This document shows positions 775 through 63,531 of a stretch of 64,000 bases of DNA, one piece after another. A model generated the notes under the pieces. It did not search any database. It saw nothing but the letters and a program-made list of their open reading frames with translations, and was not told the origin of the DNA. Made by a program: the position numbers and the translations under genes. This stretch comes from Nitrosophilus labii. GTDB lineage: Bacteria; Campylobacterota; Campylobacteria; Campylobacterales; Nitratiruptoraceae. How positions within the stretch are numbered: the stretch's first letter is position 1; every line of letters starts with the position of its first letter. Location of the stretch: contig NZ_AP022826.1 in NCBI RefSeq assembly GCF_014466985.1, positions 1,612,001 through 1,676,000 on the forward strand. Direction: 5' to 3'.

Positions 775-1085
775 GTGATTCGTAATTCGTGATTCGTAAA
801 TGGAAATTAGGAATTAGGAATTTGGAATTGGGAATTAGGATTTTTGGTTGAGTGGTTAAATGGGAATAAGAGTTAAGTGCTCAAAGTTAATGGTTAAGGA
901 TTAAGAACAAAGAACAAAAACTTAATACTAAAATTAGCACTTAACACTAAAACTTCACCCACACCCACACTCACCACTAACGACTAACGACTATCGATCC
1001 CCACAACTAACCAGCAACCATTCACTCCCCACCAACATCAACACTCACACCTCTTCATCCTTCAATCTTCACTCCTCTACTAACC
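775..1085. repeat. Long period-7 degenerate repeat tract between dnaB and comEC
   Basis: This 311-base gap has no gene. It opens with heptamers of the GTGATTC/GTAATTC type, passes into GGAATTA/GGAATTG heptamers, then TTAAGTG-like words, and ends in C-rich words such as TAACGAC, CACACCC and CACTCAC. The words TAACGAC and ATCGATAGTCG recur, as reverse complements, in the tract after nadD near 49,330. The pattern is low-complexity but has no constant repeat unit, so it is not CRISPR and not a simple microsatellite. It is the longest member of the period-7 family in this window. Confidence 0.8.
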
Positions 1086-1088
1086 AAC

Positions 1089-2501
1089 TTAAATCTGCGG
1101 AATATCAATATTAGACTCCCTCATCTCATACTCTCTAATTGTCTCGGTAGCTTCTTCTGCAAACTTAACATAATCTTTATGGAAAAAGAGTTTTACAACG
1201 CCGGTTGGTCCGTTTCTTTGTTTTCCAATGATGATTTCAGCTTCTTCAACCTTCTTTTCAGGTATCTGAACATCCACTTTTTCGCCTTTTTTGGCTGCTT
1301 CTTTCGCTTTTTCTTTCATCTCTTTTATCTTATAAACATCATCCCTATAAACAAAAAGTATCACATCGGCATCCTGCTCAATAGCGCCCGATTCTCTAAG
1401 ATCACTAAGCATTGGCCTTTTATCAACCCTGCTTTCTAGTGATCTGTTTAGCTGAGAAAGAGCGATTATTGGAAGTTCTAGTTCTCTTGCGAGGAGTTTC
1501 AGGCTTCTTGAGATTTCACTGATCTCTAAATGTCTCTCTTTATTGGCGCCACCGCTCATCAACTGCAGATAGTCTATAATAGCCAGTTCGATATCGAGAT
1601 GAGTCGATTTAAGCTTTCTTAGTTTGGCTCTTAGCTGATGTATGTTTATAAGACCTTCATCGTCTATAAAGAGTTTTCTGCTTGCCATATAGTCACTTAC
1701 CCTACTTATCTCACTCCACTCTTGATCGGTAAGATTTCCTACTCTTAAGCGCTGTAAAGGAATAGCGGCTTTTGCACTAAGCATTCTAAGAAGAAGCTGC
1801 TCAGCCGGCATCTCCAAAGAGAAAATAGCTACACCTTTGTTGTGATCCAAAACGTTTTGAGCTATGTTTAAGCTAAAAGCCGTTTTTCCCATAGACGGCC
1901 TTGCTGCGATAATGATCAAATCTCCCGGGCTAAATCCGGCGGTTTTAAGATTTAGCTCATGAAAACCTGTATCAAGACCTACCAAAATTGAGTTGCCCCT
2001 CTCTTTCATCTTCAATATGTGAGTAAGAGTATCTTTAACGACTTCGGCCGAATCTTTGAAATCTTTAGCACTAGTTTCTTGGGTTATCTTGTATAGTTTG
2101 GATTGTACGGTATCTATAACATCGGTTACTGGCAGATCCTGCTCGATTGTTATCTTCTTTATCTCCGTAGTTAGATGAATAAGCTCTCTTTTTATAGCTT
2201 TCTCTTTTATCTCTTTAACGTAAGCAGCGGTATTTGATAGAGGGTTAGCGGCTAAAACTTCTAAAAATTCGTTTTCGTCAAACTGATTTTTAAGAGAGAG
2301 TTTTTCTTTCAAAAACTCTTCATCTATGGGCTGATCTTCTTTAAAAAGCTCCTCCATAGCCCTAAACAGGTTTTTATGGAACGGGTGATAAAAATCTTCC
2401 GGCTTTAAAACTGCGGCTATATCTTCATAAAGTTCAGGATCAAAAATAATAGAACTTAAAACTGCTCGTTCTATATTTAGATTGTATAAATGCGCTTCCA
2501 A
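1089..2501 (-). CDS. dnaB: Replicative DNA helicase DnaB
   Basis: A 470-residue protein with the usual DnaB layout: N-terminal helical domain (residues about 1-110), linker, and RecA-type C-terminal ATPase. The Walker A motif ARPSMGKTAF sits near residue 200 and the Walker B IDYLQLM near residue 310. DnaB is the hexameric ring helicase that unwinds DNA at the replication fork and recruits primase. Length matches the bacterial family. No intein is visible at the Walker A site, a common insertion point in this family. A TATAAT box lies 35 bases upstream of the ATG, so the gene has its own promoter rather than depending on ispG. Confidence 0.97.
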   Translation of the reverse strand: MEAHLYNLNIERAVLSSIIFDPELYEDIAAVLKPEDFYHPFHKNLFRAMEELFKEDQPIDEEFLKEKLSLKNQFDENEFLEVLAANPLSNTAAYVKEIKEKAIKRELIHLTTEIKKITIEQDLPVTDVIDTVQSKLYKITQETSAKDFKDSAEVVKDTLTHILKMKERGNSILVGLDTGFHELNLKTAGFSPGDLIIIAARPSMGKTAFSLNIAQNVLDHNKGVAIFSLEMPAEQLLLRMLSAKAAIPLQRLRVGNLTDQEWSEISRVSDYMASRKLFIDDEGLINIHQLRAKLRKLKSTHLDIELAIIDYLQLMSGGANKERHLEISEISRSLKLLARELELPIIALSQLNRSLESRVDKRPMLSDLRESGAIEQDADVILFVYRDDVYKIKEMKEKAKEAAKKGEKVDVQIPEKKVEEAEIIIGKQRNGPTGVVKLFFHKDYVKFAEEATETIREYEMRESNIDIPQI

Positions 2502-2535
2502 AATACCCTCTTTAGTTCTCTTTAGTTTTTAATTT

Positions 2536-2541
2536 ATTATA
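2536..2541 (-). promoter_or_regulatory. -10 box upstream of dnaB
   Basis: TATAAT on the reverse strand, placed to start transcription about 27 bases before the dnaB ATG. No clear -35 box is visible, which is usual in Campylobacterota. Confidence 0.6.
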
Positions 2542-2592
2542 TCATTTTTAAAAATTTTAGTTCGTCAAAGGAAATATAAGAGTTATTAGAGA

Positions 2593-14728: not shown

Positions 14729-16819
14729 ATGATAAATCTAAAAGATCCGAAATTATTCATAAACAGAGAACTATCATGGCTTAGATTTAACTCAAGAGTT
14801 TTGGAAGAAGCGCAAAAAAGAGAAAATCCTTTGCTTGAGAGACTCAAATTTTTAGCCATATATGGAACCAACTTGGATGAATTTTATATGATAAGGGTTG
14901 CCGGACTAAAACAGCTTTTCAAATCAAGAGTATCAGTAACCGGCCCAGATAAAATGTCACCACTTGCTCAACTTAGGGCTATTAGAGATTATCTTCATAA
15001 AGAAAAACTTGAGGTTCAAAAGATTTTCTACGAAATTATAAATGAACTTGAAAACGAGGGACTCTTTATAAAAAATTACAACGATTTGGATGAAAAGACA
15101 AAAAAAGAGGTAGATAACTACTTTTTTACGCAACTTTATCCGGTAATAGTGCCTATAGCCGTAGATGCAACACACCCTTTTCCTCATCTAAACAATCTTA
15201 GCTTCGCCCTTGTCATAAAACTAGCGGATATGCAAAACGAAAACGAAATCAAATATGCGCTTATTAGGATTCCAAGAGTCTTGCCAAGATTTATTCAAAT
15301 AGATAATACCTACGTTCCTATAGAATCTTTGGTTCAAGAACATATAAACGCACTTTTCCCCGGATATAAACTCATTTCAAGCGCTCCTTTTAGAGTAACT
15401 AGAAACGCCGATATAGAAATCGAAGAGGAAGAGGCAGACGATTTTATGGAGCTTTTGGAAGAGGGATTGAAACTTAGAAGAAAAGGAGAGATAGTTAGAC
15501 TTGAAATAGGCGAAAATGTAGATGAAGACCTTCTTGAATTTTTAAACTCTCACATCAAAGTCTTTAAAGATGATATCTATAAATTCAAAATTCCTCTAAA
15601 TCTCGGAAGTTTTTGGCAGATTGTTTCCAATAAAAATTTCGCTCATCTGCTTTTTGAACCATACACCCCAAAAACTTTACCGCCTCTAGATCAAGAGCCT
15701 ATATTTGATATTATGGAGCATGAAGATATATTACTCTTTCATCCTTATGAAAGTTTTGATCCTGTAGTTAAGTTTATAGAAGATGCGAGTAAAGACTCCG
15801 ATGTTTTGGCTATCAGAATGACGCTTTATAGAGTAGGAAAAGATTCGCCTATAGTTAAAGCGCTTATTGAGGCCGCAGAAAGCGGCAAACAAGTTACCGC
15901 TTTAGTTGAACTAAAAGCCAGATTCGACGAAGAGAACAATCTTATATGGGCTAAAGCCTTGGAAGACGCCGGAGCTCACGTAATTTTTGGGATACCCGGA
16001 TTTAAAGTTCACGCTAAAATAGCTCAAATTATAAAAAAAGAGGGTGATAGATTAAAACAGTATGTTCATCTAGCAACAGGCAACTACAATCCCAGTACCG
16101 CGAGAATCTATACCGATACAAGCTATTTTACTTCTCAAAAAGATATTACTGATGATGCCACAAGATTTTTTCACTATTTAACGGGTTTCTCAAAAAAAGG
16201 AAAACTAAATACTCTGTATATGTCCCCTACACAAATAAAACCGAAACTGTTAAGTCTTATAGACAATGAGACCAAAAAAGGGAGTGAAGGAAGAATTATA
16301 GCTAAAATGAACTCTTTGGTGGATCCTGAAGTTATAGTAGCCCTGTATAAAGCGTCAAGGGCCGGAGTCAAAATAGACCTGATAGTTAGAGGAATATGCT
16401 GTTTAAGACCAAAAGTAAAAGATGTAAGCGAAAATATAAGAGTAATCTCCATAGTAGGAAAATATTTAGAACACGCAAGAATATTCTATTTTAAACATTC
16501 CAATCCTCAGATCTTTATCTCAAGCGCCGACTGGATGCCAAGAAATTTAGAAAGAAGAATAGAACTAATGACGCCTTTATTTGAAAAAGAGCTTTCGGAA
16601 AAACTTTTTGAAATACTCAATCTTCAAATAAACGATAACGTTTTAGCGAGAGAACTTCAAGAAAACGGTGAGTACAAAAGGATTGAGCGTATAGGAAAAA
16701 CACCGATAAATTCCCAAATAGTTATGGAAGAGTACACCAATATGCTTTACACGTCACATAAAAAAAGTAGTGTTAGCAGAGCAAAAAAACTGGCAAGAAG
16801 ACTTTTGAAAGAGAGTTAA
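14729..16819 (+). CDS. ppk: Polyphosphate kinase 1
   Basis: A 696-residue Ppk1, chosen to start at the ATG with a GGGAG site, because a longer frame from 14687 includes its own promoter. The N-terminal domain begins [20 protein letters not shown]. The two catalytic histidines are in [10 protein letters not shown] (autophosphorylated) and LEHARIFYF, inside PLD-like domains. The enzyme polymerises the gamma-phosphate of ATP into polyphosphate. The cytoplasmic or membrane-associated enzyme is of ordinary length. The Na/Pi-type gene is nearby on the opposite strand. Confidence 0.96.
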
Positions 16820-16907: not shown

Positions 16908-17444
16908 ATGCTTTTAAGATATAAAGAGTGGTTTCCAAAACTTGAAAAAAACGTATGGATAGCTCCTAACTCTACCGTAATAGGCAACGTAGAGATTGGT
17001 GAAGACTCATCTATCTGGTTCGGTTGCGTTGTTAGAGGAGACGTTCACTATATCAAAATAGGTAAAAGAACAAATATTCAAGACTTGACCATGATTCACG
17101 TTACACACTTTAAAAACCCCGATATGAGCGACGGCAATCCTACTATAATAGGAAACGACGTAACCATAGGACATAAAGTTATGCTGCATGGCTGCACTAT
17201 TGAAGATGGATGTTTGATAGGTATGAATGCTACTATTTTGGATGGGGCGGTTATAGGAAAAGAGTCTATAGTCGGAGCTGGAGCGCTAATAACAAAAAAT
17301 AAAAAATTCCCCCCACGAAGTTTAATTGTCGGCACTCCTGCAAAAGTCGCAAGAGAACTTACCGACAAAGAGGTAGAAGAGCTTTATAAATCTGCAAAAA
17401 GGTATGTGGATTTTAAAAATGAGTATATAGACCAAATCTTTTAA
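16908..17444 (+). CDS. Gamma-carbonic anhydrase-like hexapeptide-repeat protein
   Basis: A 178-residue left-handed beta-helix protein with isoleucine/valine hexapeptide repeats (IGNVEIGEDSSIWFGCVVRG, VTIGHKVMLHGCTIEDGCLIG). The histidines expected to bind metal in gamma-carbonic anhydrases are present in LTMIHVTHF and TIGHKVMLHG. Such proteins trimerise around zinc or iron. Some are true carbonic anhydrases and others (YrdA, PaaY) have little such activity, so the reaction is uncertain. Start ATG with AAAGGA upstream. Confidence 0.85.
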   Translation: MLLRYKEWFPKLEKNVWIAPNSTVIGNVEIGEDSSIWFGCVVRGDVHYIKIGKRTNIQDLTMIHVTHFKNPDMSDGNPTIIGNDVTIGHKVMLHGCTIEDGCLIGMNATILDGAVIGKESIVGAGALITKNKKFPPRSLIVGTPAKVARELTDKEVEELYKSAKRYVDFKNEYIDQIF

Positions 17445-17648: not shown

Positions 17649-19106
17649 ATGGCAAGATTAGTCGTACTAGGAGCAGGTGTATCCGGACATACTGCTGCTA
17701 CTTTCGCAAAACATTGGCTTGGTGATAGTCATGAGGTAGTTGTAATCTCTCCTAACAGCAAATGGAACTGGATCCCTTCTAATATCTGGGTAGGTGTCGG
17801 TCAGATGACACCAGAGGACGTTGTTTTTGAATTGGCTCCCGTCTACCAAAAGGCTGGAATAGATTTTAAACAGGCAAAAGCGGTATCTATTCACCCCGAA
17901 GGCAAAAAAGAAAGTGAAAAACCATACGTTACTATAGAATATACCGATCCTTCAAAAAAAGGTGAAATAGAAGAGGTTGAATATGATTACTTGATCAATG
18001 CTACCGGTCCAAAACTAAACTTTGCGGCTACGCCTGGTCTAGGACCTGAACACAATAGCTTATCGGTATGTACATATCAACATGCGGCCGAAGCAAACGA
18101 TCATTTACAAATCGCGATAGAAAAGATGAAAAAAGGTGAAAAACAGAAATTCCTTATAGGTACCGGTCATGGAATGTGTACATGTCAAGGTGCGGCATTT
18201 GAGTATATATTCAATATCGAGCATGAACTAAGAAAAGCAGGAGTTAGAGATAAAGCCGAAATAAAATGGATATCAAATGAGCAATTTCTAGGAGATTTCG
18301 GTGTTGCAGGCCTACATATAAAATGGGGTGGACATATCGTTTCAAGTAAAGTTTTGGCAGAGTCGCTATTTGCCGAAAGAGGACTTGACTGGATTACAGG
18401 CGCTCACGTTAAAGAAGTTCAAAAAGGAAAACTCTCTTACGAACTCTTAGACGGTACAGAAGGAGAAGAAGAGTTTGATTTTGCAATGCTCATACCTCCG
18501 TTTAGCGGTGTAGGTCTTAAAGCATACGATAAAGAAGGAAACGATATTACCGATAAAGTATTTATGCCAAACGGCTTTATGAAAGTTGATGCCGATTACA
18601 CTCCAAAATCTTTTGAAGAGTGGAAAGGCGATGACTGGCCAAAATATTATCAAAACCCTGACTATCCGAATATGTTCGCAGTAGGTATTGCCTTTGCCCC
18701 TCCTCATCCAATAAGCAAACCGGCAAAATCTGTAAACGGTACGCCAATAACTCCGGCACCTCCTAGAACGGGTATGCCTTCGGGAATTATTGGTAAAACT
18801 GTAGCTCATAGTATAGTTGAGATGATTCAAGGCAAAGCCGATAAGCCTATGCATCATGCTTCTATGGCAGAGATGGGAGCTGCTTGTATAGCTTCAACAG
18901 GAAAAGGTCTGTTTGACGGAACAGCAGTTGCACTAACAGTTTATCCTGTTGTACCTGATTATGACAAGTATCCGGGAACCGGTAGAGATCCTGATTATAC
19001 TTTTGGTGAAATCGGACTTGCCGGACACTGGATCAAACATATACTACATTATATGTTTATGTGGAAAGCGCAACTTAAACCGGGCTGGACATTAATACCT
19101 GAATAA
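17649..19106 (+). CDS. sqr: Sulfide:quinone oxidoreductase
   Basis: A 485-residue flavoprotein of the SQR family. It has the N-terminal FAD-binding GxGxxG-type motif VVLGAGVSGHTAA, a second dinucleotide-type region at KFLIGTGHGMCTCQG, and redox cysteines in SVCTYQHA and MCTCQGAAFEY. SQR oxidises sulfide to polysulfide sulfur at the membrane surface and passes electrons to the quinone pool, feeding respiration. The tryptophan-rich C-terminus (HWIKHILHYMFMWKAQL) is a good candidate for membrane attachment. A strong GGGG ribosome site lies upstream. The SQR subtype cannot be fixed without alignment. A 57-residue gene follows. Confidence 0.9.
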   Translation: MARLVVLGAGVSGHTAATFAKHWLGDSHEVVVISPNSKWNWIPSNIWVGVGQMTPEDVVFELAPVYQKAGIDFKQAKAVSIHPEGKKESEKPYVTIEYTDPSKKGEIEEVEYDYLINATGPKLNFAATPGLGPEHNSLSVCTYQHAAEANDHLQIAIEKMKKGEKQKFLIGTGHGMCTCQGAAFEYIFNIEHELRKAGVRDKAEIKWISNEQFLGDFGVAGLHIKWGGHIVSSKVLAESLFAERGLDWITGAHVKEVQKGKLSYELLDGTEGEEEFDFAMLIPPFSGVGLKAYDKEGNDITDKVFMPNGFMKVDADYTPKSFEEWKGDDWPKYYQNPDYPNMFAVGIAFAPPHPISKPAKSVNGTPITPAPPRTGMPSGIIGKTVAHSIVEMIQGKADKPMHHASMAEMGAACIASTGKGLFDGTAVALTVYPVVPDYDKYPGTGRDPDYTFGEIGLAGHWIKHILHYMFMWKAQLKPGWTLIPE

Positions 19107-48764: not shown

Positions 48765-49328
48765 ATGAAAATAGCAGTTTTCGGCGGAAGTTTTGATCCT
48801 ATCCATATCGGGCATATCAGGGTTATAGAGGAAGCTCTAAAAACTCTGGATATAGATCTGCTTGTAGTAGTTCCGGCATTTTTAAATCCATTTAAAAAAA
48901 GTTTTACTGCCCCTCCAAATCTTAGAGCAAAATGGATAAAAAAAGCTTTAATGATTTATAAAAAAGTTAAAATCTGCCCTTTTGAGATTGAAAACAACAG
49001 ACCAACATATATGATAGAAACAGTTTATCATCTACAAAAACTATATAAACCTTCAAAAATATATCTAATAATTGGAGCTGATAATCTAAAATCTTTACAT
49101 AAATGGTACAAATACAAAAATTTAAAATCAAAAGTCGAGTTTGTAGTTGCAAAACGAGGACGAGAAAAAATCCCGTTAAAATATAAAATTTTAAATGTTA
49201 ATGTTCCTATAAGCGCCACAGCGCTTAGAAAGAGGATAATTAGAAGATTTTTACCGAAAATTGTGGCTGATGAAATAGTTAGATTTTATAAGCAAAGAAG
49301 CAGTAAAGAGCGTGGGTGTAAGTGCTGA
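48765..49328 (+). CDS. nadD: Nicotinate-nucleotide adenylyltransferase
   Basis: A 187-residue nucleotidyltransferase with the signature FGGSFDPIHIGHIRVIEEAL and the C-terminal VPISATALRKRI. It makes deamido-NAD from NaMN. The ATG follows an AAGGA site. The last residues (ERGCKC, stop) are encoded by GTGGGTGTAAGTGCTGAGTC, which is already in the words of the repeat tract that follows, so the natural C-terminus may have been replaced by repeat sequence. Confidence 0.94.
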   Translation: MKIAVFGGSFDPIHIGHIRVIEEALKTLDIDLLVVVPAFLNPFKKSFTAPPNLRAKWIKKALMIYKKVKICPFEIENNRPTYMIETVYHLQKLYKPSKIYLIIGADNLKSLHKWYKYKNLKSKVEFVVAKRGREKIPLKYKILNVNVPISATALRKRIIRRFLPKIVADEIVRFYKQRSSKERGCKC

Positions 49329-49542
49329 GTCGATAGTCGTTAGTTGTTTGTTAGTAGTCAGTAGTGGGGAGTGTGGGTTTGGGCGTGAGAGTGGATCGTC
49401 CCTTGCTCCTTATCACTCATCACTAATCGCTAATCACGCTTGATGAATTACTAAGAAATAAGGATGAATGAAGAAGGCTGAAGGATGAAGGATAAAGTTT
49501 CAAGTTTTAAGTTTGAAGTATTTAGCTTAAAACTTAAATTAT
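49306..49542. repeat. Long period-7 tract from the nadD 3' end to the IS element
   Basis: Heptamers AGTCGAT, AGTCGTT, AGTTGTT, AGTCAGT and AGTGGGG follow the nadD end, then TCACTCATCACTAATCGC words, GAAGGATGAAGGATAAAG, and finally AAGTTTTAAGTTT with its complement AAAACTTAAA. There is no gene in this 214-base gap. AGTCGTTAGT recurs in reverse complement near 990 and 57,050. The IS copy inserted at its right end. Confidence 0.8.
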
Positions 49543-49588
49543 GGGACTGTAAAATAAACTGTGTAAACCACCTAAAGCCCTTAAAACC

Positions 49589-50455
49589 TTAGCGTGTATA
49601 TTTTTGCATAATTTCACTGAAAAATATACAAAGCTGAGGATAGATTTCACTCCAGCTTCTGATTTTTGTATTACTCCATTTGTGCTGTACCTCCTGTGTG
49701 GCAAGATAAAGAAGCTTAAAAGCTGAATCGATGGTTGGAAAAGAACCCACAGACTTTGTTCTTTTTTTAATATTTGAATTTATCGATTCTATGGGATTTG
49801 TCGTATAAATCAGTTTTCTTATAGCTTGGGGATATTTAAAAAATGTAGATAGCTCATTCCAGTTAGATTGCCAAGACTGGGTAATATGGGGATATTTTTG
49901 ACCCCATTTGTCATTAAAATTTGTAAGAGCAAGCTCTGCTTCTTCTTCGGTTGATGAAGTGTAGATACTCTTTAAATCTTTAGCTACCTCTTTTCTATCT
50001 TTCCAAGATACAAATTTTAGGCTATTTCTGATCTGGTGTACAATACATCTTTGAATTTCTGCCTTTGGATAAACTGCCTCTATAGCCTCTTTAAATCCAT
50101 TTAGTCCGTCTATTGCAAATATCAATACATCTTCAACACCTCTGTTTTTTATCTCATTTAAAAGTGTTAACCACTGTTTAGAACTTTCATTTTCACCTAT
50201 CCATATACCAAGAATATCTTTTTTCCCTTCAAGAGTTATGCCTAGCATTATATATGCAGCAATATTTTTAACTACTCTATCCACTCTTATTTTTAAAACT
50301 GTAGCATCCATAAATATTATCGGATATATTGCCTCTAGCGGACGACTATGCCACTCTTTTGCCTTATCTATTATTGCTTCTGTTATATTGGAAATTGTCT
50401 GAATAGAAAGTTCATACCCATATAAATCATCAAGATGGTGTTGAAATCTGTTCAC
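49589..50455 (-). CDS. IS256-type transposase, C-terminal reading frame (left copy)
   Basis: A 288-residue frame starting at GTG (MNRFQHHLDDLYGYELSIQTISN). It contains the whole DDE catalytic domain of the mutator/IS256 family: first Asp in IFMDATVLKIR, second Asp in FAIDGLNGFKEAI and Glu in TTNPIESINSNIKK, plus the QRCIVHQIRNSLKF stretch. In intact relatives this is joined to the N-terminal part in one frame. Here it overlaps the first frame by 26 bases in +1. An AAAGGGATGA site precedes the GTG, so separate translation is possible. Confidence 0.88.
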   Translation of the reverse strand: MNRFQHHLDDLYGYELSIQTISNITEAIIDKAKEWHSRPLEAIYPIIFMDATVLKIRVDRVVKNIAAYIMLGITLEGKKDILGIWIGENESSKQWLTLLNEIKNRGVEDVLIFAIDGLNGFKEAIEAVYPKAEIQRCIVHQIRNSLKFVSWKDRKEVAKDLKSIYTSSTEEEAELALTNFNDKWGQKYPHITQSWQSNWNELSTFFKYPQAIRKLIYTTNPIESINSNIKKRTKSVGSFPTIDSAFKLLYLATQEVQHKWSNTKIRSWSEIYPQLCIFFSEIMQKYTR

Positions 50456-50804
50456 TCATCCCTTTTGCATATAAAGACAAAATTAAATCTTCTGTCCCCT
50501 TTATGAGAGTCTGTCGCTTCTTGATAAGCTTTGGTTCGAAGGTAGCGTTTCTGTCTCTTGGTATCTTAACCTCTATATCCCCATATTTGGACTTTAAAGT
50601 TTTTTCACTGTACCCATTACGATAATTTGGATTATCTGAAACTTGATGCTTCTCATATCCTAAATGCTCAGTTAACTCTACTTCTGTAGCAGTCTGATAA
50701 ACCTCTTTTAAAAGACCTTTGAATTCTTCCAAGATCTCATCAATATCTATCCCCTTTCCCTCTTTGATAGCTTTTTTTACCTCTTCTGTATTGATATACC
50801 TCAT
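50430..50804 (-). CDS. IS256-type transposase, N-terminal reading frame (left copy)
   Basis: A 124-residue frame beginning MRYINTEEVKKAIKEGKG. It carries the family's N-terminal region with TEVELTEHLGYEKHQ, NYRNGYSEKTLKSKYGDIEVKIPRDRN and LYAKGMSEQ, then changes frame and ends at ISTPS. Relatives read through from GMS-x-x-x to FQxHLDDLYG, so two bases appear to be missing at the junction. It would supply the DNA-binding half only. Confidence 0.88.
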   Translation of the reverse strand: MRYINTEEVKKAIKEGKGIDIDEILEEFKGLLKEVYQTATEVELTEHLGYEKHQVSDNPNYRNGYSEKTLKSKYGDIEVKIPRDRNATFEPKLIKKRQTLIKGTEDLILSLYAKGMSEQISTPS

Positions 50805-50890
50805 TGTGTAAATCCTTTTTATTCTTTAATTTTATCTAATCTTTTTATAAGGATTTACACAGTTATTTTTACACTCCCGAAATTATTGAA

Positions 50891-50928
50891 ACTTATACTA
50901 ATTCCCAATTCCTAATGTCTAATATTCC
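50891..50928. repeat. Short period-7 tract over the rsfS stop codon
   Basis: ATTCCCA, ATTCCTA, ATGTCTA and ATATTCC follow in phase. The rsfS stop (50919-50921) lies inside it, so the last Gly-Glu-Tyr codons are shared with the repeat. Confidence 0.55.
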
Positions 50929-51254
50929 CCTTTTCTTATCTCTTCCAAAAACTCTTCAATATTGTATCTTTTTCTATAGGCTTCCGTCATTATATGAACT
51001 ATCATATCTCCAAGATCTATAACAACCCAGTCATCGCTAGTTTGCACTTTTAAAAACTCTTCTCCCTCAGGTTTTAGCTTCTCTTTCAAAAAATCCAAAA
51101 GGGCTGTTGTATGTTTATCTCCTAATGACGTTCCAATTACTACAAAATCTACAAAATATCCTTTATCTTTTAGATCAAAGATTTGTACATCTTCAGCTTT
51201 TTTATCTTCTAATAGCTCTTTGATTCTTTTAGCTCTTTCTTCAACACTCTTCAT
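50919..51254 (-). CDS. rsfS: Ribosomal silencing factor RsfS (Iojap family)
   Basis: A 111-residue Iojap protein. Conserved parts are KAEDVQIFDLKDKGYFVDFVVIGTSLG in outline, DDWVVIDLGDMIVHIMTEAYRKRYNIEEF. It binds L14 and blocks subunit joining when nutrients are short. In relatives it is usually next to nadD; here an IS element and repeat tracts separate the two, and the genes are convergent. It lies downstream of argS. Confidence 0.93.
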   Translation of the reverse strand: MKSVEERAKRIKELLEDKKAEDVQIFDLKDKGYFVDFVVIGTSLGDKHTTALLDFLKEKLKPEGEEFLKVQTSDDWVVIDLGDMIVHIMTEAYRKRYNIEEFLEEIRKGEY

Positions 51255-51267: not shown

Positions 51268-51357
51268 TAACATTGAACAGTAATCAGTGAGCAGCGGTCA
51301 GTGAATAGTACTCGTCACTCATCACTCATCACCCGTCACTCATCACTGATTACTAAC
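51268..51357. repeat. Period-7 fold-back repeat between argS and rsfS
   Basis: The tract is in phase seven throughout: CAGTAAT, CAGTGAG, CAGCGGT, CAGTGAA on the left and CGTCACT, CATCACT, CATCACC, GATTACT on the right. AGTAATCAGTGA (51279-51290) pairs perfectly with TCACTGATTACT (51343-51354). It starts at the argS stop codon. Confidence 0.85.
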
Positions 51358-52944
51358 CTACATCCTTTTTTTTGCTTCTATCCCCAAAAGTCTTAGTCCT
51401 ACTCTAATAGAAAGCGCAGTTACGGAAAATAGTTTTAAAAGTTTCTCTTCTTCATGTGAGCCTATAACTTTGTGTTCATTATAAAATCTATGAAACTCTG
51501 AAGCCAAAGCTTTAAGATAGTCTGTAACTTTTTGAAGCTCTCTCTTTTCAAAAGCATCTTCGATAACTTCAGGCAACAGTAGCGAAATAAACAGAAGATT
51601 TTTAGCATCTTCTTTAAGATCTTTTAACTCTACATCATATACGTCTTCAAAATTTTTACCGGCCTTTTCAAAAATAGAGTTTACTCTTGCGTGAGCATAG
51701 TTAATATAATAAACAGGGTTTGAAGAGTCCTCTTTTTTCAAAAGATCCACATCAAACTCAAGATGTGTATCAGCTTTCTTACTCAAAAACATAAATCTTA
51801 AAGCATCTGCTCCAATATCTTCTACAACATCACCCATTAAGATAAAATTACCGGCGCGTTTACTCATTTTGTAAGGTTCTCCGCCCTTAAGCAAAGAGAC
51901 CATCTGGGCTAAAATTATCTCAAGTTTGTCAGCGTCGAAAGCTAAAAATCTTATAGCTGCTTTTACTCTAGCAATATATCCGTGATGATCTGCTCCCCAG
52001 ATATTTATATATCTGTCATAACCTCTTTTAAATTTTTCGTAATGATAGATTATATCGCCTGCAAGATAGGTAGGACGTCCATCCTCTCTTACTACGACTC
52101 TATCTTTTTCATCGCCATACTGAGTCGATTTTAGCCAAACTTTTCCATCTTTATGATAAACAGCTCCCGCCTCTTCTAAAACCTCCAAAACTTTAGGCCA
52201 CTTCTCATAAAGTTCTTTTTCACTTACAAAAGTATCAAACTCTATTCCTACTCTTTTTAGATCCGCTTTGATAAGCTCCATCATCTTGTCTTTAGCCCAT
52301 GTTGAGAGCTTTGGTATAAAAACTTCGTCAACAAAAATTTCACTTCCAAAATGCTCAGCTGCCTCTTTGGCAAGTTCGATGATATACTCACCCCTATAAT
52401 ACTCTTGGGGCCATTTTGTTTCAAGCTTTAAGATATTTTCTCTTCCGGCAAGATATATGGAAAGTCCCAAAAGATATATCTGATTTCCAGCATCATTTAT
52501 ATAATACTCTTTAATTATCTTATATCCAAGATGTTTGCCTATTCTTGAAAGCGCATCACCAATAACTGCTCCTCTTGCATGACCTATATGAAGAGGCCCT
52601 GTAGGATTAGCGCTAACAAACTCCAAAAGAATATTCTTATCTTTAAAATCTGCACCGAACTTCTCTTCATTTTTAAGAGCCCAAGTAGCATACTCATCTA
52701 AAAAGTTTTCGCTAAGTTTGAAATTTATATACCCTTTTACCGCTTCCACATTTTCAAATATCTCTTCACCTTTAAAAATATTGGCCAGTTCGTCAGCTAT
52801 AATCATCGGCGATTTTCTTAACTCTTTAGCTAACGAAAAGGCAATAGGAGTGGCATAATGTCCAAATGCTCTATCTTTAGGTTTTTCCAAAACCATAGGT
52901 TTATCTATATGCTTTGTAAGTATTTGAAGAACTTTTTTTCTCAA
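51358..52944 (-). CDS. argS: Arginyl-tRNA synthetase
   Basis: A 528-residue class I synthetase. The HIGH motif is in [22 protein letters not shown] and the KMSKS-like motif in [17 protein letters not shown]; the C-terminal DALR domain ends [22 protein letters not shown] and beyond. It charges tRNA-Arg. The stop codon abuts a repeat tract. The order argS-tatA-gmk-polyE is as in Helicobacter pylori. Confidence 0.97.
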
Positions 52945-52969: not shown

Positions 52970-53033
52970 AAGTGGAGTATGGAGTATGGAGTTTGTATCA
53001 AATAATACTCCCTACTCCATACTCCTTACTTAA
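52970..53033. repeat. Period-7 fold-back repeat between tatA and argS
   Basis: GGAGTAT, GGAGTAT, GGAGTTT, GTATCAA, ATAATAC, TCCCTAC, TCCATAC and TCCTTAC run in one seven-base phase across the whole fold. The left arm (52974-52992) pairs with the right arm (53007-53025) at 18 of 19 positions. It forms the argS mRNA leader. Confidence 0.9.
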
Positions 53034-54992: not shown

Positions 54993-55514
54993 ATGATGAA
55001 AAAGTTTTTCTTATTTTTATTTTTTTCACTATTTTTATGGGCAGATGAAATTTATATCTTGCCTTATGAGGCAAAACCTGCTCTAGATACTCTTTTAAAA
55101 AGTATAGATTTATCTAAAAATCAAATAGATATAGCAATATACAGTTTTACTAATCGTAAAATCGCAAAACATCTAAAAAAAGCCGCAAAAAGAGGTGTCA
55201 AAATAAGAATAATATTTGACAAAGAGTCCAATCTTTACAACAAAAGAAGCCAACTTAGATATCTTGCAAAATATAAAAATATAAAAACATACATAATTTC
55301 CGGAAAACCGTTTAAAAAAAATGATAGCTACGGTAAAATGCATATGAAACTTATGATTATAGATAACAAAAGAGTGATTTTAGGTTCTGCAAACTACTCT
55401 TATTCGGCTTTTGGCAAAAATTATGAGATTTTATATATAAAAGATGATTATAAAATCGCAAAAAAATGCGAAAAATATTTTGAAAGGATTAAAAGTAAGG
55501 CGCAAGAGTATTAG
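54993..55514 (+). CDS. nucT: NucT-type phospholipase D-family nuclease
   Basis: A 173-residue protein with a signal/anchor (KKFFLFLFFSLFLWADE) and one HKD motif, HMKLMIIDNKRVILGSANYSYSAF. Single-HKD nucleases dimerise to form the active site. NucT of Helicobacter pylori is a membrane-associated nuclease preferring single-stranded DNA and is next to the polyE gene there too. A role in DNA uptake or nucleotide salvage is likely. Two tandem ATGs are possible starts; AAAGGA precedes. Confidence 0.9.
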   Translation: MMKKFFLFLFFSLFLWADEIYILPYEAKPALDTLLKSIDLSKNQIDIAIYSFTNRKIAKHLKKAAKRGVKIRIIFDKESNLYNKRSQLRYLAKYKNIKTYIISGKPFKKNDSYGKMHMKLMIIDNKRVILGSANYSYSAFGKNYEILYIKDDYKIAKKCEKYFERIKSKAQEY

Positions 55515-55583
55515 ATAGTGAGATATTAGTCGTTAGTCTTTAGTTTTTAGTTATTAATTGTTAAATCATTATAGACATTAAAA
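55513..55583. repeat. Period-7 tract after nucT
   Basis: TTAGTCG, TTAGTCT, TTAGTTT, TTAGTTA, TTAATTG and TTAAATC run in phase seven from the nucT stop to the edge of the IS target site. No strong fold-back. Confidence 0.75.
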
Positions 55584-55665
55584 TATATTTAGGGAGTGTA
55601 AATATAACTGTGTAAATCCTTATAAAAAGATTAGATAAAATTAAAGAATAAAAAGGATTTACACA

Positions 55666-56040
55666 ATGAGGTATATCAATACAGAAGAGGTAAAAAAAGC
55701 TATCAAAGAGGGAAAGGGGATAGATATTGATGAGATCTTGGAAGAATTCAAAGGTCTTTTAAAAGAGGTTTATCAGACTGCTACAGAAGTAGAGTTAACT
55801 GAGCATTTAGGATATGAGAAGCATCAAGTTTCAGATAATCCAAATTATCGTAATGGGTACAGTGAAAAAACTTTAAAGTCCAAATATGGGGATATAGAGG
55901 TTAAGATACCAAGAGACAGAAACGCTACCTTCGAACCAAAGCTTATCAAGAAGCGACAGACTCTCATAAAGGGGACAGAAGATTTAATTTTGTCTTTATA
56001 TGCAAAAGGGATGAGTGAACAGATTTCAACACCATCTTGA
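55666..56040 (+). CDS. IS256-type transposase, N-terminal reading frame (right copy)
   Basis: A 124-residue frame with the same protein sequence as its counterpart in the left copy, ending after GMSEQISTPS through the same frameshift. Its ATG follows AAAAGGATTTACACA. As in the left copy it lacks all three catalytic acidic residues. Confidence 0.88.
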   Translation: MRYINTEEVKKAIKEGKGIDIDEILEEFKGLLKEVYQTATEVELTEHLGYEKHQVSDNPNYRNGYSEKTLKSKYGDIEVKIPRDRNATFEPKLIKKRQTLIKGTEDLILSLYAKGMSEQISTPS

Positions 56041-56881
56041 TGATTTATATGGGTATGAACTTTCTATTCAGACAATTTCCAATATAACAGAAGCAATAAT
56101 AGATAAGGCAAAAGAGTGGCATAGTCGTCCGCTAGAGGCAATATATCCGATAATATTTATGGATGCTACAGTTTTAAAAATAAGAGTGGATAGAGTAGTT
56201 AAAAATATTGCTGCATATATAATGCTAGGCATAACTCTTGAAGGGAAAAAAGATATTCTTGGTATATGGATAGGTGAAAATGAAAGTTCTAAACAGTGGT
56301 TAACACTTTTAAATGAGATAAAAAACAGAGGTGTTGAAGATGTATTGATATTTGCAATAGACGGACTAAATGGATTTAAAGAGGCTATAGAGGCAGTTTA
56401 TCCAAAGGCAGAAATTCAAAGATGTATTGTACACCAGATCAGAAATAGCCTAAAATTTGTATCTTGGAAAGATAGAAAAGAGGTAGCTAAAGATTTAAAG
56501 AGTATCTACACTTCATCAACCGAAGAAGAAGCAGAGCTTGCTCTTACAAATTTTAATGACAAATGGGGTCAAAAATATCCCCATATTACCCAGTCTTGGC
56601 AATCTAACTGGAATGAGCTATCTACATTTTTTAAATATCCCCAAGCTATAAGAAAACTGATTTATACGACAAATCCCATAGAATCGATAAATTCAAATAT
56701 TAAAAAAAGAACAAAGTCTGTGGGTTCTTTTCCAACCATCGATTCAGCTTTTAAGCTTCTTTATCTTGCCACACAGGAGGTACAGCACAAATGGAGTAAT
56801 ACAAAAATCAGAAGCTGGAGTGAAATCTATCCTCAGCTTTGTATATTTTTCAGTGAAATTATGCAAAAATATACACGCTAA
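56015..56881 (+). CDS. IS256-type transposase, C-terminal reading frame (right copy)
   Basis: A 288-residue frame with the same protein sequence as in the left copy and a full DDE triad. It begins at GTG in the +1 frame, 26 bases before the first frame ends. Whether the two frames make one protein through slippage, two proteins, or none cannot be told from sequence. Confidence 0.88.
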   Translation: MNRFQHHLDDLYGYELSIQTISNITEAIIDKAKEWHSRPLEAIYPIIFMDATVLKIRVDRVVKNIAAYIMLGITLEGKKDILGIWIGENESSKQWLTLLNEIKNRGVEDVLIFAIDGLNGFKEAIEAVYPKAEIQRCIVHQIRNSLKFVSWKDRKEVAKDLKSIYTSSTEEEAELALTNFNDKWGQKYPHITQSWQSNWNELSTFFKYPQAIRKLIYTTNPIESINSNIKKRTKSVGSFPTIDSAFKLLYLATQEVQHKWSNTKIRSWSEIYPQLCIFFSEIMQKYTR

Positions 56882-57000
56882 GGTTTTAAGGGCTTTAGGT
56901 GGTTTACACAGTTTATTTTACAGTCCCTATATTTATATAAATAAAATTTCAAAATATTATAAATTAATTTTCTATAAAATAGATTTGTATATATATAACA

Positions 57001-57058
57001 TCTAACATCATTCATCATTCATCATTAATCACTCATCACTCATCACGACTAACGACTT
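57001..57058. repeat. Period-7 tract encoding the C-terminus of the lolD-like gene
   Basis: On the reverse strand the units AGTCGTT, AGTCGTG, ATGAGTG (twice), ATTAATG and ATGAATG (twice) run in phase. The lolD-like stop codon (57029-57031) lies in the middle, so the last eight or so codons are repeat sequence. Confidence 0.85.
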
Positions 57059-57718
57059 ATTCTCTAATCTATAAACCCTGTCACATCTACGGGCCAATTC
57101 CATATCGTGTGTCACTAAAAAAAGAGCGGCATCGTTTAAATATATATATTCAAACACTTTTTCCATCACTTCATCGGCTGTTTTTTTATCAAGATTTCCC
57201 GTCGGTTCGTCTGCAAATATTATTTTAGGTCTTTTAGTCAAAACTCTGGCAATCGAAACTCTTTGTTGTTCTCCTCCGCTTAGTTCGGTTACTTTTTTGT
57301 AAATCACTTTTTTTATACCAAAACTCTCTATCAGTTCCTTATCAATCTCTTTTTGAGCAAGAAGTGAAGCAACTTTAATATTTTCAAACGCAGTAAATCC
57401 TCTGAAAAGATAATGGGATTGAAATATAATCCCTATTAATTCTCTTCTAATCTTCAATATATTTTTTTGTGTCTCGTTATATATATCTTTGCCAAAAAGA
57501 AAAACTTTTCCTTTTTTTGGTTCCAACAAAGTAGATAATATATGTAAAAGGGTAGATTTTCCGCTTCCACTCACGCCGACAATAGCAATTGATTCTTTGG
57601 GGTTCAAAGTTAAATCAACATTTTCAAAAAGTGGATAATCAAATGAATGGGAGATGCTTGTAGCTTTTAGTAAAAAGGTTGAAGGTTGAAGATTGAAGGT
57701 TGAAGGGTCTGTTCTCAT
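57029..57718 (-). CDS. LolD/MacB-type ABC transporter ATPase with repeat-encoded ends
   Basis: A 229-residue ATPase starting at the ATG preceded by GGAAGAAG; a TTG six codons upstream is less likely. Walker A is GVSGSGKSTLLHIL, the signature TELSGGEQQRVSIARVL and Walker B IIFADEPTGNLD, all typical of LolD/MacB/FtsE ATPases that power lipoprotein release or export. The conserved family start is LLKATSISHSFDYPLFENV; the 15 residues before it (with PSTF twice) and the last residues (SLVVMSDE) are encoded by period-7 repeats. The partner permease is not adjacent. Confidence 0.88.
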   Translation of the reverse strand: MRTDPSTFNLQPSTFLLKATSISHSFDYPLFENVDLTLNPKESIAIVGVSGSGKSTLLHILSTLLEPKKGKVFLFGKDIYNETQKNILKIRRELIGIIFQSHYLFRGFTAFENIKVASLLAQKEIDKELIESFGIKKVIYKKVTELSGGEQQRVSIARVLTKRPKIIFADEPTGNLDKKTADEVMEKVFEYIYLNDAALFLVTHDMELARRCDRVYRLENKSLVVMSDE

Positions 57719-57750
57719 TTTTACTTCTTCCTTCAACCTTCTACCTTTTA
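57672..57750. repeat. Period-7 fold-back repeat over the lolD-like start
   Basis: AAAGGTT, GAAGGTT, GAAGATT, GAAGGTT and GAAGGGT are followed past the start codon by the complement CCTTCAACCTTCTACCTTTT. The same GAAGGTTGAAGATTG words occur upstream of ilvE near 63,495. Confidence 0.85.
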
Positions 57751-57757: not shown

Positions 57758-58675
57758 TTATTTCATCTGAGCCGCAACTTCAGACGCAAAATCATCTTGT
57801 TTTCTTTCTATTCCTTCACCAAGTTCATATCTTACAAACTGTACGATTTTTGCAGTTCCGCCTGCAGCTTTTGCCGTCTCGTCAAGAATCTGTTTAACAC
57901 TTTTTTTATCATCTTTAACGAACTTTTGTCCCAAAAGAGTATTCTCTTCTACAAACTTTTTGATTTTACCAGGAATGATTTTATCGATAATATTGGTAGG
58001 TTTACCCTCTTTTTCAAGTTGAGCTTTAGCTATCTCTTTCTCTTTTTCTAAAACAGATTCAGGAACAGCGCTTTCATCAAGATATTTTGGATTCATTGCA
58101 GCTATATGCATTGCTATATCTTTTAACAAATCTTTTACAGCTTCGCAAACTTCATCTTTATCGCAAGTAGCCGCAACGATAACTCCTATCTTTCCTCCCA
58201 TATGAATATATCCGTTTACTACTCCGCTTCCTTCTACGCAGATCTTATCAAATCTTCTAACGACGATATTTTCACCAATTTTTGCAATCTCGGCTTTCAT
58301 AAACTCTTCAAACTTAACTCCGTCAATCTCCGTTTGAAGAAGATCCTCTACACTATCTGGCGAAGTTATGTGGATATGTCTTAACGCTTTTTTAACAAGT
58401 TGCTTGAAATTATCGTTTTGTGCGACAAAATCGGTTTCAGAGTTAATTTCACTTATAGTAGCACACTTATAATCATCGCTTATTTCCAACGAAACAGCCC
58501 CTTCACTCGCAACTCTATCAGCCTTTTTAGCAGCTTTTGCTATACCTTTTTTTCTTAATATCTCTACGGCTTTATCCATATCTCCTTGTGCTTCTTGCAA
58601 AGCCTTTTTGCAGTCCATCATTCCTGCACCGGTCATCTCTCTTAGTTTTTTTACCTCTGCAGCAGTTATCGCCAT
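57758..58675 (-). CDS. tsf: Elongation factor Ts
   Basis: A 305-residue EF-Ts. The N-terminal UBA-like domain is [26 protein letters not shown]; the core has NSETDFVAQNDNFKQLV, which inserts into EF-Tu to release GDP. The start codon shares one base with the rpsB stop (TAATG), so the two are translationally coupled. Length is within the family range. Confidence 0.97.
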   Translation of the reverse strand: MAITAAEVKKLREMTGAGMMDCKKALQEAQGDMDKAVEILRKKGIAKAAKKADRVASEGAVSLEISDDYKCATISEINSETDFVAQNDNFKQLVKKALRHIHITSPDSVEDLLQTEIDGVKFEEFMKAEIAKIGENIVVRRFDKICVEGSGVVNGYIHMGGKIGVIVAATCDKDEVCEAVKDLLKDIAMHIAAMNPKYLDESAVPESVLEKEKEIAKAQLEKEGKPTNIIDKIIPGKIKKFVEENTLLGQKFVKDDKKSVKQILDETAKAAGGTAKIVQFVRYELGEGIERKQDDFASEVAAQMK

Positions 58676-61902: not shown

Positions 61903-61935
61903 CGACTACCTTTTAATTTAAATCGATAAACATTT

Positions 61936-63354
61936 CTATAAAATCACCACAGATTTTATCTCCGTAAACTCCTCAATGGCAAACTTTGGTCCTTCTCGTC
62001 CAATCCCTGAAAGTTTAACGCCTCCATACGGCTGTATATCAAATCTAAGTGTAGGTATATCATTTATTACAACACCGCCTGCTTCGGCATCGTCGATAAA
62101 TCTTTTAGTCAAACCTAGATCATTTGTAAAAATCGAAAACTGTAATCCATAAGGTGAATCGTTCATCTTTTTTATAGCCTCATCGTAGTTTTTAACTTTA
62201 ACCAAACTTACAATAGGAGCAAAAACCTCTTCACAAACTATCTTCATATCATCAGTTACATCGGCTAATATTGCCGGATAAAAATACCTACCTTCCCTTT
62301 TTGGAGGCAAAATTGCTCTAGCACCGGCTTCAATAGCACTATTTACCCAGTTTTGGGCTCTAATCGCCGCATCTTCGTTTATCAAAGGCCCCATAAAAGT
62401 ATCCGGTTCATAAGGATCGCCAACTTTTAGTTTTGAAGTCTCAGTAGCTAGTTTTTGCGCAAACTCCTCATAAATATCCTCGTGAACATAAATTCTTTGA
62501 AGGCTTATACAAACTTGACCGCTATTTACGAACGCTCCAACAGCACATCTACTAGCCGCATAAGATAGATCCGCACTTTTATCTATAAAAGTTGCCGCAT
62601 TTCCTCCTAATTCTAAACTTATCTTTTTAATACCAGCGCTTTTAGTAATAATCTCTCCAACTTGAACGCTTCCCGTAAAACTTATCTTTCTTGGTATATC
62701 GCTTGTAACTAACGCGCTTCCAACTTCGGCGTCTCCATATACGACACTTAGCATATCAGCAATCGCATATTCGCTTTCAATAAATGTTTTAGCTAAAAGG
62801 TATCCCGTATATGGGGCTTCAGGCGTGGGTTTAAAAACAACGCTGTTTCCCGCAACTAATGCTGGTCCTAGTTTATGAGCCGCTAAATTTAGAGGAAAGT
62901 TAAAAGGTGTAATGGCAACCACTACGCCTACAGGAACTCTTTTATAAAAAGCCACACTTTTTTTACCGCTTGAAGTCGCGTCCGTATTTATGGTCTCTCC
63001 TACTAGATTAACGGCCGCTTCAGCGCTTAACTCCAATGTTTCAACGCACCTATCAACCTCTACTCTACTAAAAGTTATAGGTTTTCCTACCTCTTTTGTT
63101 ATTGCTAAAGCGAATTCTTCTTTATCCTCTTTTATCTTTTTAGCCACATCTTTGATCCATTCTACTCTTTTAGCAAGAGTAAACTCTTTACTTTTTTCAA
63201 AAGCATCTTTGGCAATTTTTAAAGCTTTCTTGGCATCTTCAGCACTACACTTAGGAAAAATAGTAACAACTTGGTCGTTAAAAGGACTTTTTATCTCCCC
63301 TTTCTCCTCCTTACTCACCGGTACAGAACCATAATATATCTTTGCTTCTTGCAT
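61936..63354 (-). CDS. NAD(P)-dependent aldehyde dehydrogenase
   Basis: A 472-residue ALDH. The cofactor region is ITPFNFPLNLAAHKLGPALVAGNSVVFKP, the general base Glu is in ISLELGGNAATFID, and the catalytic Cys is in FVNSGQVCISLQRIYV. The GNSVVFKP/ELGGNA pattern and length fit the succinate-semialdehyde/lactaldehyde/GapN branch. The substrate is uncertain. Divergent from ilvE. Confidence 0.92.
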   Translation of the reverse strand: MQEAKIYYGSVPVSKEEKGEIKSPFNDQVVTIFPKCSAEDAKKALKIAKDAFEKSKEFTLAKRVEWIKDVAKKIKEDKEEFALAITKEVGKPITFSRVEVDRCVETLELSAEAAVNLVGETINTDATSSGKKSVAFYKRVPVGVVVAITPFNFPLNLAAHKLGPALVAGNSVVFKPTPEAPYTGYLLAKTFIESEYAIADMLSVVYGDAEVGSALVTSDIPRKISFTGSVQVGEIITKSAGIKKISLELGGNAATFIDKSADLSYAASRCAVGAFVNSGQVCISLQRIYVHEDIYEEFAQKLATETSKLKVGDPYEPDTFMGPLINEDAAIRAQNWVNSAIEAGARAILPPKREGRYFYPAILADVTDDMKIVCEEVFAPIVSLVKVKNYDEAIKKMNDSPYGLQFSIFTNDLGLTKRFIDDAEAGGVVINDIPTLRFDIQPYGGVKLSGIGREGPKFAIEEFTEIKSVVIL

Positions 63355-63450
63355 TACATACCCCTCTTCTGTTCGTTAAAATAATTAAAATTAATGCGTA
63401 ATTAAATAGTTTTAATTACTTAACAACAAATTACTATCTATTTTAACCAT

Positions 63451-63458
63451 ATTATAAT
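63451..63458. promoter_or_regulatory. Shared -10 region between the aldehyde dehydrogenase and ilvE
   Basis: ATTATAAT reads TATAAT on both strands with a two-base offset, about 97 bases before each gene, and could serve divergent promoters. Confidence 0.35.
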
Positions 63459-63485
63459 TTAATCAATATTTTGATAGACTTAAGC

Positions 63486-63531
63486 CCACTTTTAAGGTTG
63501 AAGATTGAAGGTTGAGATCTCAATCTTCTCC
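63486..63531. repeat. Period-7 fold-back repeat upstream of ilvE
   Basis: AAGGTTG, AAGATTG and AAGGTTG units are followed at once by CTCAATCTTCTCCTT. The centre TTGAGATCTCAA is a perfect palindrome and extends by GAAG/CTTC with one G-T pair. Same words as the lolD-like tract. Confidence 0.75.

Follow-up and report, generated by a model that had tools for sequence, protein, structure and literature searches.

Between the genes of the campylobacterote Nitrosophilus labii lie tracts of degenerate words of seven nucleotides (nt), less often eight, repeated in phase. We describe these tracts in a 64,000-nt stretch of the genome (the window; contig NZ_AP022826.1, positions 1,612,001 to 1,676,000) and compare them with those in further parts of the same genome (G000), in two tract-rich relatives within the genus (G002 and G003), in contigs of other phyla and in viral contigs. 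Where two arms of such words adjoin, their C-poor strands converge, irrespective of whether the words of the two arms are related and of the direction of the neighbouring genes. Orthologous slots mostly keep their words at a flank identity of 90-95% and have them replaced at 68-89%, and long segments are shared between slots. We tentatively read the tracts as fast-turning intergenic filler from two-ended repair, an explanation in which our confidence falls somewhat short of even; the pattern has the look of a scar left by repair and not of a set of switches.

The tracts came to attention through a preliminary description of the window, which placed them at 12 intervals. Each interval was compared at its best lag of autocorrelation with first-order resampled sequence (5000 resamples each), and all 12 exceeded it (p<=0.014), confirming tracts at every one. 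Nine gave a signal reached in 0-1 of the 5000 resamples; the others were 63486-63531 (lag 7, 17/5000), 50891-50928 (lag 7, 69/5000) and 19110-19185 (lag 8, 67/5000). The seven-base phase claimed for all of them holds for ten, while 19110-19185 and 28112-28212 have a best lag of 8. The autocorrelation check that had been proposed was carried to 444 kb of G000 (the window and 19 stretches of 20 kb), where 26 lag-7 segments scored at least 14 against 0 in one Markov resample; other lags (4-6, 8-16) yielded 1-14 segments, with 0-3 in the resample, and lag 7 tops them all. Tandem 7-nt units are thus above chance, and a minority of arrays have 8-nt units.

The tracts are dispersed and mostly intergenic, with 14 of those in G000 lying within called frames. 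Among gaps of at least 20 nt, 28 of 188 carry a tract in the G000 sample and 44 of 140 in G003. Intergenic lag-7 tracts number 6 per 100 kb in G000 (444 kb), 12 in G003 (344 kb) and 12 in G002 (42 kb, a biased sample because its pieces were picked as orthologs of tract-bearing regions); none were found in G001 (126 kb), G005 (100 kb) or G007 (100 kb), and 60 kb from three other families held two. The pattern GGAATTNGGAATTNGGAAT, allowing at most one mismatch, has 123 matches in G000, 57 in G002 and 40 in G003, and none in the congeners G001 and G004; the reversed pattern has none. Densities and counts together indicate that the trait is patchy even within the genus.

Beyond the genus, the array GGAATTD x3 + GGAAT was found in at least 117 stretches, in records whose titles include Cyanobacteria, Bacteroidetes, Clostridia, Patescibacteria, Acidobacteriota, Chloroflexi and Calditrichaeota and, among others, Verrucomicrobium, Treponema, Xanthomonas and a metagenome-assembled genome (MAG) of the Campylobacterales, although the titles of draft MAG contigs may mislabel single cases. 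Viral contigs carry other words as well (GGATATD in 16 stretches, AAGGHTG in at least 120). We considered whether GGAATTD is a special word and rejected the idea; its reversed form turns up about as often among the viral contigs (31 versus 35 stretches), and so no claim is made for any one word. A group of related viral contigs (L391, L395 and L369, which are one contig, with L333, L336, L319 and L387) has many array-filled gene gaps; the contig of L391, L395 and L369 shows 18 array slots in three pieces, and the group includes runs of CGCAGAGG octamers.

An arm is an in-phase run of heptamers or octamers, such as GGAATTA/G/T, TTCGTAA, AAGGTTG, AGTNNNN, TTAAGTG or GTATATTG. C makes up 5.3% of the C-poor strand in G000 and 5.9% in G003, and 4.4% at the loci of other phyla and 6.7% in viral contigs, both of the latter sets having been found with C-poor words. 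At the free base of GGAATTNGGAATT in the genus we counted 27 G, 20 A, 7 T and no C (n=54). Each genome holds many unrelated words rather than one dominant family, and within an arm the words may shift stepwise in register, from the gene side inward, as in GACATT -> GTCATT -> GTAATT -> GGAATT; such shifts occur at many of 18 G003 loci, which were themselves picked by their similarity to a tract of this kind. A fixed anchor within the heptamer is not apparent, the top phase taking a 0.30 share of the changes in the genus against 0.31 at random; in other phyla the changes are slightly uneven (0.33 versus 0.27 for random placement).

The preliminary description took the second half of a tract to be commonly the reverse complement of the first, and named template switching among the mechanisms that might lie behind this design. 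In the window (tracts are named here by their first position) the halves are clearly complementary in five of the 12 intervals (27721, 28112, 51268, 52970 and 57672; 0-1/300 shuffles), weakly so in two (19110, 9/300; 63486, 7/300), and not so in the remaining five (775, 49306, 50891, 55513 and 57001), of which four belong to just two tracts that IS256-family insertions have interrupted. Arm-to-arm similarity runs from none to high. The two arms of one locus resemble each other more than arms from different loci do in G000 (1/2000 permutations) and other phyla (20/2000), and not clearly so in G003 (230/2000). Growth of a palindrome from its centre was rejected, since the 21 nt nearest the centre are no better matched between the arms than the outermost 21 nt (9.7 versus 10.5 in G000, 6.7 versus 6.6 in G003, 8.6 versus 8.1 in other phyla). 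With unrelated arms, moreover, in 54 of 130 converging pairs, self-complementarity by template switching is not supported as the design: the tracts are not a palindrome family, and polarity is their constant feature.

That polarity was counted in G000, G003, 117 genome-contig loci of many phyla, and viral contigs found with four patterns, for arms no more than 150 nt apart, excluding tracts within called frames and counting identical pairs once. Among 166 arm pairs the C-poor strands converge in 130, run in tandem in 33 and diverge in three. Where the words are unrelated (local score below 14), 54 pairs converge and none diverge; where they are related, 76 converge and three diverge. Only G000 and G003 are unbiased for polarity, because the pattern-found sets were selected by C-poor words; these two alone give 28 converging pairs (13 of them unrelated), no diverging pair and four in tandem. 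When each locus of the pattern-found sets contributes a single pair, 72 converge, one diverges and 20 are in tandem; converging, diverging and tandem pairs free of all search words number 29, three and 14, respectively. A looser count (score 12, lags 7 and 8) gives inward to outward ratios of 10:0 in G000, 35:4 at 80 other-phyla loci and 13:1 in viral contigs. Of 86 GGAATTD sites at 80 genome loci, 28 have a C-rich array downstream and none has one upstream; in viral contigs such an array is downstream of 2 of 38 GGAATTD sites and 19 of 101 AAGGHTG sites. Tract-free gaps have the opposite lean, with a G-rich left and C-rich right side in 7 and the reverse in 18.

Arms without a partner tend to be closer to whichever gene flanks the 5' side of their C-poor strand (10:0 in G000, 11:3 in G003, 44:28 at genome loci and 112:77 in viral contigs). 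The C-poor strand is independent of the direction of the neighbouring gene (20:15 and 65:64), and this lack of strand bias led us to reject regulation tied to the direction of transcription. The three diverging pairs consist of CAATCCAACAATC-type words on a Candidatus Uhrbacteria contig (two pairs) and AATTTTC-type words on an acidobacterial contig (one pair; L087, L062).

A polarity of this kind recalls the Chi site of the RecBCD system, a recognition site that is read from its 3' side. G-rich words could likewise be so oriented that a nuclease entering from a break between the arms encounters both in their active direction, sparing the genes on either side; the observed polarity fits a site read from the 3' side, and the arms flank a centre and adjoin genes. 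The words, however, change completely between congeners, and each genome holds several unrelated ones, so that reading by one sequence-specific nuclease is hardly possible and we judge this explanation very improbable.

The complementary halves suggest instead that the tracts might be RNA hairpins under selection, serving as bidirectional terminators or 3' stabilisers and renewed as the words change. Apart from the five of 12 intervals with complementary halves, this account can draw on the folding of nine tracts (five with z < -4 and a sixth with z = -3.9), on the 52970 tract, which is better conserved than its flanks in G002, and on the plain hairpins of the genome, which lean mildly towards a G-rich left arm (20:8, 14:6 and 7:6 for arms of at least 8, 9 and 10 nt). 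It sits badly with the unrelated arms of the 54 converging pairs, with z > -2 in three of the nine folded tracts (two being halves of an interrupted tract), with the lack of any link to gene direction, and with the missing tract at site 51310 in G003. Between 48600 and 58200, none of seven terminator-like sites (loops 3-8) lies inside the seven tract intervals of that region, in which no intrinsic-terminator stem with a T run was found, and the tracts have no Rfam match, a tRNA being the sole match in the window at gathering scores. We therefore regard selected hairpins as quite unlikely.

How the words change was followed through orthologous slots. In G002 the sequences beside the window tracts show 90-95% identity (70% at one flank of 49306), and those beside tracts at locus L027 show 71-89%; in G003 flank identity is 68-88%. 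In the regions of G002 with 90-95% flanks, read by eye, the 52970 tract is identical except for a 2-nt deletion in the loop, the 57672, 28112 and 48697 tracts have words in common with G000, with small changes, and the 51268 tract is longer by 14 nt, or two units, in each arm; the 49306 tract is shortened, divergence marks the 19110 tract, and no clear array is seen in the 55513/57001 slot. At three L027 slots the words are replaced between species (two further L027 matches, 8093 and 11005, lay within coding DNA and were discarded). At 15490, G000 has GTGTGAGT and CTAATTCC/TAATGTC where G002 has ATATTGGT octamers; 16664-16691 has three different words in three species; and 17058-17092, at the start of a protein-coding frame, differs in all three (G000, G002 and G003). 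The tract at 16664-16691 ends in the apparent ribosome-binding site of the next gene (GGAGG, GGGAG and AGGAG in the three species), and at 17058-17092 an N-terminus or leader is apparently encoded by three word families in three species. At 52970 G003 carries TTAAGTG words where G000 has GGAGTAT, at 57672 GTGAAGGA octamers where G000 has AAGGTTG, and at 28112 a long tract whose words differ; the G003 slot at 51268-51357 (site 51310) is empty, so that the tract appears as a clean insertion, and the G003 slot for the 19110-19185 tract also looks empty. Unrelated words at syntenic slots, as the preliminary description had envisaged, are thus found in less similar relatives; in the closest one, G002, at 90-95% flanks, the same words recur at orthologous sites, which that description would have taken for ordinary regulatory sites, and they do not recur in G003 or in the less similar parts of G002.

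Viral slots show the same trend, with other words (global identity of at most 0.7) at 2 of 13 slots with flanks at least 95% identical, 19 of 44 at 90-95%, 33 of 49 at 80-90% and 20 of 27 below 80%; among 26 rows so labelled that were read by eye, five differ in length alone, which leaves 21 from a few slots of related phages. As to the slots themselves, six of eight G000 tract slots with a readable G003 ortholog hold a tract there, which is weak evidence for slot conservation, because tracts are present anyway in 36-42% of those G003 gaps that measure at least 40-60 nt (p about 0.03-0.06 by hand).

A rival account is ordinary replication slippage, in which heptameric minisatellites would start from a short word already present, gain and lose whole units and diverge through point mutations, without any special event or function; contact length of the polymerase has been proposed to favour seven nt (Mrazek and colleagues, as cited in passages of PMC4679880 and PMC4692102). 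The 14-nt difference in each 51268 arm between two relatives, together with the real 7-nt register, indicates that slippage takes part, as the preliminary description had it. Variation in the genus is spread across the seven phases as at random, and two viral alleles without an array already hold one copy of the word (L293 versus L381), which simple slippage can explain; since the array-less L381 allele contains a copy of AGGATGA, some arrays were probably born by local slippage. As the whole explanation slippage seems doubtful to us, since it gives no reason for neighbouring unrelated arrays to converge (54:0), for words to be swapped in a slot whose flanks are 90-94% identical, or for the shared word order and the partly non-periodic segments of 64 to 143 nt found at different slots.

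These segments emerged from comparisons of arrays within a genome. All-versus-all alignment of 47 G003 elements gave 60 pairs of at least 50 bits, against 0-4 after shuffling 7-nt blocks within halves (five shuffles), and 29 G000 elements gave five pairs against none. A segment of 143 nt recurs at 89.5% identity in two G003 slots that lie about 3 kb from each other. On one viral contig (L391, L369), two slots share 64 nt at 95%, part of it non-periodic; the versions of these slots in sister contigs carry other words, and the 21-nt core of the shared segment occurs at one other place among the loci compared. Word order and long segments common to several loci indicate that segments are copied from place to place, and slippage alone does not produce shared segments of 64 to 143 nt. 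Growth of each locus from a different seed, as had been supposed, is not supported either: the same words recur at dozens of places, and shared word order is far above that of block-shuffled sequence.

Copies at several places would also be left by non-autonomous elements of the repetitive extragenic palindromic (REP) or miniature inverted-repeat transposable element (MITE) type, the arms being degenerate terminal inverted repeats and the mover a transposase. A dispersed family that is patchy among congeners, a compound word order common to several loci and the clean insertion at 51310 relative to G003 all accord with such elements. Their absence of fixed length, growth by units and often mutually unrelated arms do not, and at the one clean pair (51310, G000 versus G003) neither a target-site duplication, judged by eye, nor fixed ends are seen; we consider this origin unlikely.

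Two-ended repair would account for the tracts as follows. A break or collapsed fork between two genes would leave two facing 3' ends, to each of which C-poor sequence would be added seven (or eight) nt at a time. Some of it would come from slippage of the end back onto the word just made, and some from copying of a stretch of a different array of that genome. Joining of the extended ends and filling in would follow, and repeated rounds would swap the words, gene ends limiting the spread. The C-poor strands would converge whatever the words because both additions occur at 3' ends; the seven-nt steps point to re-priming on the last word, and the long shared segments to copying from other arrays. 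That breaks are the start, that the arms are synthesised at 3' ends and that the ends are joined to each other we infer from this pattern.

Several observations weigh against two-ended repair. No break was seen, nor a polymerase or joining enzyme for the process with Pfam models in 21 genomes: Ku (PF02735) is absent from all 21, the reverse-transcriptase domain RVT_1 (PF00078) occurs in nine with no match in G002 or G003, and the Y-family polymerase (PF00817) occurs in 13, including G001, which is tract-free in the 126 kb sampled. A random break alone does not explain arms that start a few nt from a gene end. Most pattern-found arrays are single, 54 of 82 genome sites having no downstream neighbour array and viral contigs still more often none. 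The genome-contig and viral loci were found by C-poor word patterns, and sister phages contribute pairs that lack independence. In G002 the 52970 tract has changed less than its own coding flanks, two viral array-less alleles already carry one word copy (AGGATGA; L293:8565 and L293:4898 versus L381), and Nostoc has few paired repeats according to passages of PMC4692102.

Reverse transcriptase, Ku and the Y-family polymerase were each rejected as the key enzyme because their distribution does not fit, and the enzyme copying short primers that the preliminary description proposed was not identified. The G000 genome does encode a reverse-transcriptase domain (43 bits; G000:C1:1345002-1345433, minus strand) in a frame of 607 amino acids, not found in the other tract-rich congeners.

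Within the window, a composite tract at 775-1085 (lag 7: 173/304 matches versus 83.5 expected, 0/5000) ends beside the stop of dnaB (1089-2501, minus strand). To about 930 its C-poor strand is the plus strand, with outer TTCGTRA words followed by GGAATTD and AGTTAAG, and from about 930 to 1085 it consists of the C-rich words CACTAAC/CACTCAC and CTTCATC. A period-8 tract at 19110-19185, with a C-poor followed by a C-rich arm, lies directly 3' of the gene at 17649-19106, which matches sulfide:quinone reductase weakly. Converging TTAAGTG arms at 27721-27787 are upstream of fabF (26485-27708, minus), and the period-8 converging GTATATTG arms at 28112-28212 are 3' of fabG (28216-28962, minus). The period-eight nusA tract of the preliminary description, absent from its coordinates, was located at 41767-41795 (plus; TTAGTATA words), directly 3' of nusA (40646-41764).

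A second composite tract, at 49306-49542, is 3' of nadD (48765-49328, plus) and comprises a C-poor arm at 49328-49376 (AGTCGTT/AGTGGGG), a C-rich arm reaching about 49445 (CATCACT) and a second C-poor arm at 49460-49538 (AAGGATG, AAGTTTN). The apparent partner of the last is the C-rich AATTCCT arm at 50891-50928 (minus), which overlaps the end of rsfS (50919-51254, minus), the two being parted by an IS256-family insertion at 49543-50878. Converging AGTNNNN arms at 51268-51357 fill the space between rsfS and argS, and converging GGAGTAT arms at 52970-53033 lie upstream of argS (51358-52944, minus). The C-poor TTAGTCN arm at 55513-55583 (plus), directly 3' of a NucT-like gene (54993-55514, plus), is the left half of a tract interrupted by the insertion at 55592-56927; its right half is the C-rich CATCATT/CATCACT arm at 57001-57058 (minus), which overlaps the end of an ABC ATPase gene (57029-57736, minus). 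Converging AAGGTTG arms at 57672-57750 cover the frame start of that ATPase gene and adjoin tsf (57758-58675, minus), and short arms of the same word converge at 63486-63531, upstream of an aldehyde-dehydrogenase-like gene (61936-63354, minus).

The two IS256-family copies of the window are inverted relative to each other and belong to about a dozen in the genome; the transposase consists of two overlapping frames (50430-50804 and 49589-50455). Both window copies and the one at L208 are located between or beside arms. The insertion sequence was rejected as the maker of the tracts, 9 of 12 copies lying outside them and these three inside (by eye). Elsewhere in the G000 assembly, the second contig (G000:C2, 102,672 bases) is plasmid-sized, and comparison of its first 12 kb with the plasmid collection gave no near match.

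Bacterial heptamer repeats have been on record since about 1990, and to our knowledge have no accepted origin. The short tandemly repeated repetitive (STRR) sequences of heterocystous cyanobacteria, for which PMC4692102 cites work on Calothrix, are tandem heptamers between genes and in this resemble the present tracts. The preliminary description knew of no such repeats in Campylobacterota; convergent heptamers have in fact been published for Xanthomonas (PMC4692102), and the heptanucleotide GTGATTA has been reported in the campylobacterote Helicobacter pylori (van Belkum, cited in a passage of PMC4692102).

The closest published parallel is found in the passages of Rehm et al. (2015, PMC4692102) on the GGGAATC repeats of Xanthomonas and the GGGGA(C/T)T repeats of Nostoc. 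Like the present tracts, these are dispersed, mostly intergenic heptamers with a C-poor strand, occupying mostly the same gene slots in two species with varying length and sequence. In Xanthomonas they also form convergent pairs (70 and 75 cases, with 186 and 183 repeats) and lie nearer to the open reading frame on the 5' side (mean distance 28 nt, versus 160 nt to the downstream one). Each genome studied there has one word family, whereas the present tracts have many words and two periods and, unlike those repeats as described in the same passages, form ordered compound arrays with unrelated converging arms, word replacement and shared segments. The TAACTGA direct repeats of Beggiatoaceae, cyanobacteria and Bacteroidetes (MacGregor 2015, PMC4679880) are likewise heptamers patchy across distant phyla, with indels of mostly 7 nt between close strains and mixed words in Microcystis; they differ in lying mostly just 5' of start codons in the main species, and the passages of PMC4679880 describe no converging unrelated arrays. 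Among long simple sequence repeats of prokaryotes heptamers are the commonest class (Mrazek et al. 2007, as cited in passages of PMC4679880 and PMC4692102); the length class and the idea of slippage are the same, but neither convergence nor word replacement follows from that idea. Degenerate arrays may escape surveys of exact repeats, and a 2025 tree-of-life survey of short tandem repeats reports on average no enrichment in bacteria (PMC12699852).

Among the open-access papers listed, we found no description of such arrays in Campylobacterota, of a cross-phylum polarity rule, of genus-wide word replacement or of inter-slot copying; convergent heptamers were known already from Xanthomonas.

The polarity rule, holding as it does between unrelated arms, yields a testable statement on which DNA ends were extended, and the DNA between genes, start sites and protein ends included, can change its sequence while the neighbouring genes remain in place. 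Two known processes are comparable: V(D)J joints have N-regions, in which what is added to the two 3' ends leaves a purine-rich left and a pyrimidine-rich right half, and in alternative end joining, templated insertions copy short distant segments. The present additions differ in being periodic, and no such bacterial enzyme was found here. It is rather unlikely, in our estimate, that an undescribed two-ended repair in many phyla and phages adds C-poor heptamers to both 3' ends of intergenic breaks and then joins them, rewriting the DNA between genes; if true, this would be a bacterial counterpart of N-addition or telomere healing.

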